DNA from: Mariprofundus sp. KV
Lineage (GTDB): Bacteria; Pseudomonadota; Zetaproteobacteria; Mariprofundales; Mariprofundaceae
NCBI RefSeq assembly: GCF_013387475.1
Contig: NZ_VWNB01000002.1
Location: 1 to 64,000, forward strand
DNA: 64,000 nucleotides
Reading direction: 5' to 3'
The number at the start of each line of letters is the position of its first letter. Positions within the stretch are counted from its first letter, which is position 1. Below are positions 49,622 through 50,859 of the stretch, one piece after another. Under the pieces are notes generated by a model. It made no database searches and was not told the origin of the DNA. It saw only the letters and a program-made list of their open reading frames with translations. The translations under genes were made by a program, and so were the position numbers.

Positions 49622-50287
49622 CTACTCCTGCTCTGTAGAAAATTCAGGCTTCCGGATGCCGGGAATCCATACACTGCCCAGTGATGCATCCAATCCGGGT
49701 TGTGTTAAATAGATACCCCATAGTGCACCACATTTAAGTTGAATCGCATGTTGTTCAGATAACCAGGCAAGATCTGTTCTCAGGCGATCAAAGGAAATAT
49801 GAAACCCTTCTGAATGCAATGATTCAAGCAGAGTCGCTTCATTTGTCGTGAAATTTTTTGTGCGAGCAAGAATCTGAATAATACGCAATCGACGCCCTTC
49901 TAACCGCTGCTGTTCAGCATCATCAATCACCGCCGGTCGCTGTTGCACACTACGTTGATTTGACTCTTGTGCTGATGTTACAGAATTCTTTTGCTCTACA
50001 GATGCACGAATCTCTTCGCGCTCCTGTTTTCTGATCTCTCCAGGGTCGATGTTTTGCGCCAACAACGCCTTTGCTGCCTCACGCTTTTCGCGAGCTTCAT
50101 CCAGGCCGACAGTCGGATGAACACCAAATGCCAGTGTCTTCTGTTTGCCGTCAAAACGGTAAGCCAACTTCCAGTATCGACCTGAGGATTTAACCAGCAG
50201 GTAGAGTCCGCCACCATCACTGACCTTAAACTGGTTTCTTCCATACGGAACTTTCATTGCTTCGATCTCTGCTTCAGATAACGCCAT
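49622..50287 (-). CDS. Fusion of an integrase arm DNA-binding domain and a phage-type winged-helix-like domain
   Basis: 221 aa from the ATG at 50287, with GAGAGG upstream. Residues 1-90 match the arm-type DNA-binding domain (DUF4102) of P4-like tyrosine integrases: LSEAEIEAMKV, VSDGGGLYLLVKSSGRYWKL, YRFDGKQKTLAFGVHP and LDEAREKREAAKALLAQNIDP. Instead of a recombinase core, a Gln-rich linker leads to a C-terminal domain with FTTNEATLLESLHSEGFHISFDRLRTDLAWLSEQ and ITQPGLDASLGSVWIPGIRKP-like text. This resembles a Mu-like phage protein family (VpaChn25_0724-like). No catalytic R-H-R-Y is present. Likely a DNA-binding regulator; the repeat array upstream may be its target. Confidence 0.7.
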   Translation of the reverse strand: MALSEAEIEAMKVPYGRNQFKVSDGGGLYLLVKSSGRYWKLAYRFDGKQKTLAFGVHPTVGLDEAREKREAAKALLAQNIDPGEIRKQEREEIRASVEQKNSVTSAQESNQRSVQQRPAVIDDAEQQRLEGRRLRIIQILARTKNFTTNEATLLESLHSEGFHISFDRLRTDLAWLSEQHAIQLKCGALWGIYLTQPGLDASLGSVWIPGIRKPEFSTEQE

Positions 50288-50299
50288 TCCCGACCTCTC

Positions 50300-50443
50300 T
50301 GTTGGTTCTTTTTCATAAAATAAGAACCAACATAAAGACCAACATCTTAACGTGTTGGTTCTTTTGTTGGTTGTATCATATTGCACGCTATAAAAACAAC
50401 AAGACAATCATTAAAACCAATCATAAAAATAAAAGAACCAACA
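50300..50443. repeat. Array of AAGAACCAACA 11-mers in both orientations
   Basis: Perfect copies: 50300-50310 (minus), 50322-50332 (plus), 50353-50363 (minus) and 50433-50443 (plus). Shorter or altered copies: AAGACCAACA at 50335-50344 and TGTTGGTTGT at 50365-50374. The array begins 13 bases upstream of the arm-domain gene start, where an operator for autoregulation would lie. Arm-type sites of integrases are short repeats of this sort. Confidence 0.8.
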
Positions 50444-50784: not shown

Positions 50785-50859
50785 TGGTACTCCGTAGGGG
50801 AATCGAACCCCTGTTTCCGGCGTGAGAGGCCAGCGTCCTAACCGCTAGACGAACAGAGC
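50785..50859 (-). tRNA. tRNA-Glu (anticodon CTC)
   Basis: 75 bases with CCA encoded. Acceptor GCTCTGT pairs with ACGGAGT (two G-T pairs). Anticodon arm CTGGC-CTCTCAC-GCCGG with CTC; T arm with GGTTCGATTCC. Intact by eye. Many proteobacteria have only the TTC form, so this is a second isoacceptor. Confidence 0.92.

Follow-up and report, generated by a model that had tools for sequence, protein, structure and literature searches.

A gene of 221 aa in the marine iron-oxidising bacterium Mariprofundus sp. KV probably encodes a domesticated fragment of an integrase that represses its own gene, and the cluster of 11-mers directly in front of it would be its arm-type sites. The gene and its repeat array, hereafter the module, lie in a 64,000-nucleotide stretch that was analysed as a whole (the window). 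Judged from sequence comparison, the 11-mers are almost certainly binding sites for the protein encoded beside them.

The module gene (49622..50287, minus strand; start codon 50287-50285) is a fusion of an integrase arm DNA-binding domain and a phage winged helix, as identified from its open reading frame and from Pfam, PHROGs, and NCBIfam profiles. The N-terminal domain is Arm-DNA-bind_3 (PF13356, formerly DUF4102; aa 3-89, 50021..50281, minus strand; E 4e-22) and scores 78.5 bits vs the Pfam gathering cut-off of 27, and the same profile matches 15/15 aligned module proteins. The arm half, together with its extension, is also hit by phrog_3423 (E 1e-25), a group of short phage proteins that have an arm-type domain; at 157 positions this profile is too short to contain the fused winged helix as well. 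The PDB relatives of the arm domain, by sequence and by fold, are 3ju0 and 3jtz; such Arm-DNA-bind_3 structures are parts of full integrases, and the comparison with the module covered the domain. Profile searches found no core-binding or catalytic recombinase domain in the 221-aa protein, which has only the arm domain of an integrase and falls outside the tyrosine integrases (PRK09692, 51 bits vs 434).

The C-terminal winged helix (aa 130-215, 49643..49900, minus strand) resembles phage proteins of the VpaChn25_0724 and Mu gp26 type (phrog_436, E 9e-19; NF050184), which stand alone whereas the domain is fused in the module. By sequence it is homologous to the NF050184 family while formally just below its cut-off (63.2 bits vs 65, positions 1-87 of 88), and the profile matches 15/15 module proteins with a best E of 8.5e-27. 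A deletion phenotype has been published for the Vibrio gene VpaChn25_0724 (PMC7756092), and the literature found establishes no biochemical function for it. A relative in Alteromonadaceae phage B23 is annotated as Mup26 and lies directly ahead of the small terminase gene. The structure model of the window protein is confident in the winged helix (pLDDT about 90) and less so in the arm domain. A Foldseek search with this model placed the HAI7 and HPI integrase arm domains at the top, followed mostly by winged-helix regulators. The winged helix may have targets of its own. Both domains are under purifying selection, with dN/dS below 0.2 (0.04-0.10 for the arm domain and 0.13-0.18 for the winged helix, dS being high in several of the pairs), and the strands of the arm domain are near-invariant among orthologues.

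Exact copies of AAGAACCAACA, the predicted arm-type site, were located by word search at 50300-50310 (minus strand, adjoining the ribosome-binding site), 50322-50332 (plus strand), 50353-50363 (minus strand), and 50433-50443 (plus strand), the last an outlier upstream of the putative promoter. Two weaker predicted sites with two mismatches each, AAAGACCAACA (50334-50344, plus strand) and TACAACCAACA (50365-50375, minus strand), lie between them, the latter sharing the last base of the putative -10. The original prediction, which had described four perfect copies in alternating orientation, two weaker ones, and a position right before the start codon, is thereby borne out; the nearest site ends 12 bases ahead of the ATG. 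The window contains no further copy of AAGAACCAACA when up to one mismatch is allowed, and a scan of the genome for other clusters returned these four as the only exact copies in 2,533,868 bases, which hold 0 copies of the reversed control word. The 450 bases upstream of the gene hold four exact copies and six at up to two mismatches, vs 0.000 and 0.23, respectively, in 300 dinucleotide shuffles.

The array travels with the gene. It is present in front of the orthologue in 16/16 genomes, and repeats missing there, named at the outset as evidence against the prediction, did not occur. Each orthologue has 3 to 10 upstream copies at up to two mismatches (n=16), one of which, in all 16, occupies -22 to -32 relative to the start codon. 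At least one exact upstream copy was found in 14/16; G010 and G002 have upstream variants only, with an exact copy located downstream in G002. The site words are kept at distances where the surrounding intergenic DNA has diverged. The eight Mariprofundus genomes that do not carry the gene have no array either, and one stray copy of the 11-mer among them all. Almost every exact copy in Mariprofundus sits at the module, and the scattered rest turn up roughly as often as the reversed control word; nothing therefore points to a regulon built on the 11-mer, and this candidate was set aside. A search of viral contigs for the 11-mer in inverted pairs gave one match, which was rejected: it resembles a terminator hairpin and has no arm-domain gene in the 1.4 kb examined. 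The deep-branching modules (PV-1 L140, G002, G005, G010, and G115) have one or two sites past the stop codon, which in PV-1 lie 20-60 bases after it and form an inverted pair ahead of a recG-like gene.

Similar arrays stand in front of related tyrosine integrases located next to tRNA genes, over the promoter and in the stretch from the tRNA to the integrase start, usually with one copy near the ribosome-binding site. The site cores of these ordinary integrases are TACCAACA or TACCGTCA, where the module has AAGAACCAACA. Covariation between arm domain and site was counted in a set of 119 arm-domain genes wherever the site base was callable, with base 4 left free in the motif search. Residue 40 is the X of W-X-x-x-Y-R-F: Arg, His, or Gln at this position pairs with T at site base 4 (81/81), and Lys pairs with A (16/17). 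Gln at residue 49 pairs with A at site base 8 (87/87), and Arg at residue 49, together with D42, pairs with G (6/6). All modules have Lys at residue 40, the codon of which is at 50168..50170 (minus strand) in the window.

The AACC sites also occur before unrelated K-type integrases outside the module. The integrase L059 of Sulfuriferula has exact AAGAACCAACA three times, the viral integrase L149 combines K40 with A4, and L185 follows the pairing in part, with two AACC and two CACC sites. PV-1 (L010) has K40 yet mostly GACC sites, and this counts against the explanation favoured here. Two viral loci with Ser or Thr at residue 40 (L179 and L181) have mixed sites, some of them CACCAACA, and are too few to judge. 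On a weakly resolved tree K40 requires four changes, with A4 each time, of which the well-supported branches force one; with so few forced changes and such poor resolution, a phylogenetic test of the covariation has no power. The association is thus strong and the phylogenetic statistics weak. Because the site base follows the arm-domain residue, though with few independent changes, and does so in unrelated K-type integrases too, the 11-mers are best read as arm-type sites for the arm domain that the gene encodes, which favours the arm-type-site reading given in the original prediction. The pairs Lys40-A4, Arg40-T4, Gln49-A8, and Arg49-G8, seen in arm domains and upstream DNA of L012-L084 and L129-L186, suggest a possible code by which integrase arm domains recognise their sites.

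A sequence scan identified a putative promoter on the minus strand (50375..50402), consisting of TTGTTG (50402-50397), a 16-nt spacer, and TATGAT (50380-50375). It matches the consensus at 8/12 positions, which is weak, and for this reason is absent from the listing of a stricter scan; a similar -35/-10 pair (TTGCCA..TAnnAT) is found in the same place in most orthologues. Five of the six predicted sites span the region from the putative -10 down to the site nearest the ATG. In KplE1, the intS promoter overlaps attL and is repressed by the integrase IntS, and other tRNA-adjacent integrases of KplE1-like arrangement are self-repressing as well (PMC2951348); single arm-site mutations left the KplE1 repression in place, a point against the explanation favoured here. 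Since the predicted sites cover the likely -10 and start up to the ribosome-binding site, and given the precedent of KplE1 intS, negative autoregulation is the best candidate mechanism, and the array most likely serves it. The operator reading, which had been put forward as an alternative to arm-type sites, gains support from the same overlap with the putative promoter and from the published integrases; the two readings do not compete, and the array is probably both.

The module probably arose from a P4/KplE1-type tyrosine integrase gene with arm-type sites across its promoter region. The promoter region and the N-terminal arm DNA-binding domain would have been retained, and a Mu gp26-like winged helix would have taken the place of the core-binding and catalytic domains. 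The site sequence, with AACC instead of TACC, matches Lys40. By occupying the -10/start region up to the ribosome-binding site, the protein most likely represses its own transcription, and this self-repression would keep its level low and constant. Also against this explanation, the searches turned up no intermediate form linking an integrase to the fusion. The arm domains of the modules form a single clade (SH-aLRT 99), and an origin from the resident integrases of Mariprofundus was rejected as their arm domains fall outside it.

Other readings of the repeats were weighed against self-repression. The inverted copies could act in RNA, as alternative 5' leader hairpins that control translation or termination: the leader folds well (z -3.8; z -2.4 to -8.2 vs shuffles for the window and relatives), and one copy adjoins the ribosome-binding site. 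Any conserved DNA word present in both orientations necessarily folds, however, and RNA structure gives no explanation for a change at base 4 that tracks an arm-domain residue. Copies also lie upstream of the putative transcription start and past the stop codon, and no Rfam family exceeded its threshold in the leader; we consider control by RNA structure quite improbable. The array might instead be a recombination region that still works, with a resident integrase acting on it in trans. A tRNA-Glu(CTC) gene (50785-50859) some 500 bases ahead of the gene in G000, the genome of the window, and integrases of G019 and G020 that sit at the same tRNA-Glu(CTC) would fit this idea, but the tRNA neighbours only three modules. 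Its 3' end has a single occurrence within the window, with no repeat, and a functional att region with a duplicated tRNA-Glu 3' end was therefore rejected; the integrases found in G000 carry other site words, and the K-type signature in that genome belongs to the module only. Recombination in trans is accordingly given very little probability. Still fainter is the prospect that the gene is decaying and the repeats are functionless leftover attL arm sites. The catalytic domain is absent and 8/23 genomes of the genus do not have the gene, but dN/dS is far below 1 in both domains, the reading frame is open in all 16 genomes with the module, and the conserved arm strands and the site words, which outlast the intergenic DNA around them, do not suggest decay.

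The protein could also act mainly on incoming K-type elements by occupying their arm sites, with autoregulation secondary, so that both their integration and the expression of their integrase would be blocked. A genuine integrase, that of Sulfuriferula L059, bears the identical 11-mer, and within Mariprofundus the K-type signature matches modules alone. K-type integrases are rare everywhere sampled, however (two signature matches outside the module in 398 genomes, and none added by a wider search around G126), so their absence says little, and TACC is the site word of the common Mariprofundus integrases, one that the module should recognise poorly. We see a low probability both for the occupation of arm sites as the main role and, to the same degree, for the resulting block. 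A related idea, unlikely but not negligible, is that of a host regulator that guards the genome, sets its own level, blocks elements with Lys40 arm domains, and ignores the common Arg40 elements. Were it true, integrase expression and integration of incoming Lys40 elements would be what is blocked, and the residue-base pairs would form a simple code for site recognition by the arm domains of integrases.

As a probable self-repressing integrase fragment, the module is like KplE1 IntS and the other tRNA-adjacent integrases in that the predicted arm-type sites for its protein overlap the putative promoter of the gene, ahead of the start codon. It differs in having no core-binding or catalytic domain and no known recombination partner, in the second DNA-binding domain fused to it, and in the gene usually not being beside a tRNA. 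A domesticated fusion free of catalysis has probably kept the self-regulating promoter of an integrase, an arrangement known in kind and new in this variant. It looks like the regulatory half of an integrase, reused after the catalytic half was lost and with its binding sites kept alongside. If the residue-base rule holds, the arm-type sites of a very common class of integrases would be predictable from protein sequence, which would help in placing the att regions of genomic islands and prophages.

The full-length fusion is found in 15/23 Mariprofundus genomes and in one genome of a sister genus in the same family. It was not found in the other genomes of the class that were searched, in a 398-genome sample of the phylum, or in viral contigs, where arm domains alone were matched; a longer match at first sight in Serratia (L053) is a plain integrase. 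The gene neighbourhood is variable, often with mazG nearby, and a defence island was rejected since the neighbours, by eye, look like usual genes of a chromosome, mazG and recG-like ORFs among them. Distances for gyrB and for the module correlate (r 0.67). Strict vertical descent was rejected because the modules of G012 and G019, and those of G022 and G011, group more closely than gyrB suggests; for G012 and G000, gyrB stands at 94% and the module at 61%. The disagreement between gyrB and module distances in places suggests exchange between lineages, or horizontal replacement within the genus. At L139 (G015:C34, 3310-3380) there is a second, nearly identical module upstream region that has no gene and lies near a contig end, and is either a duplication or an assembly artefact.
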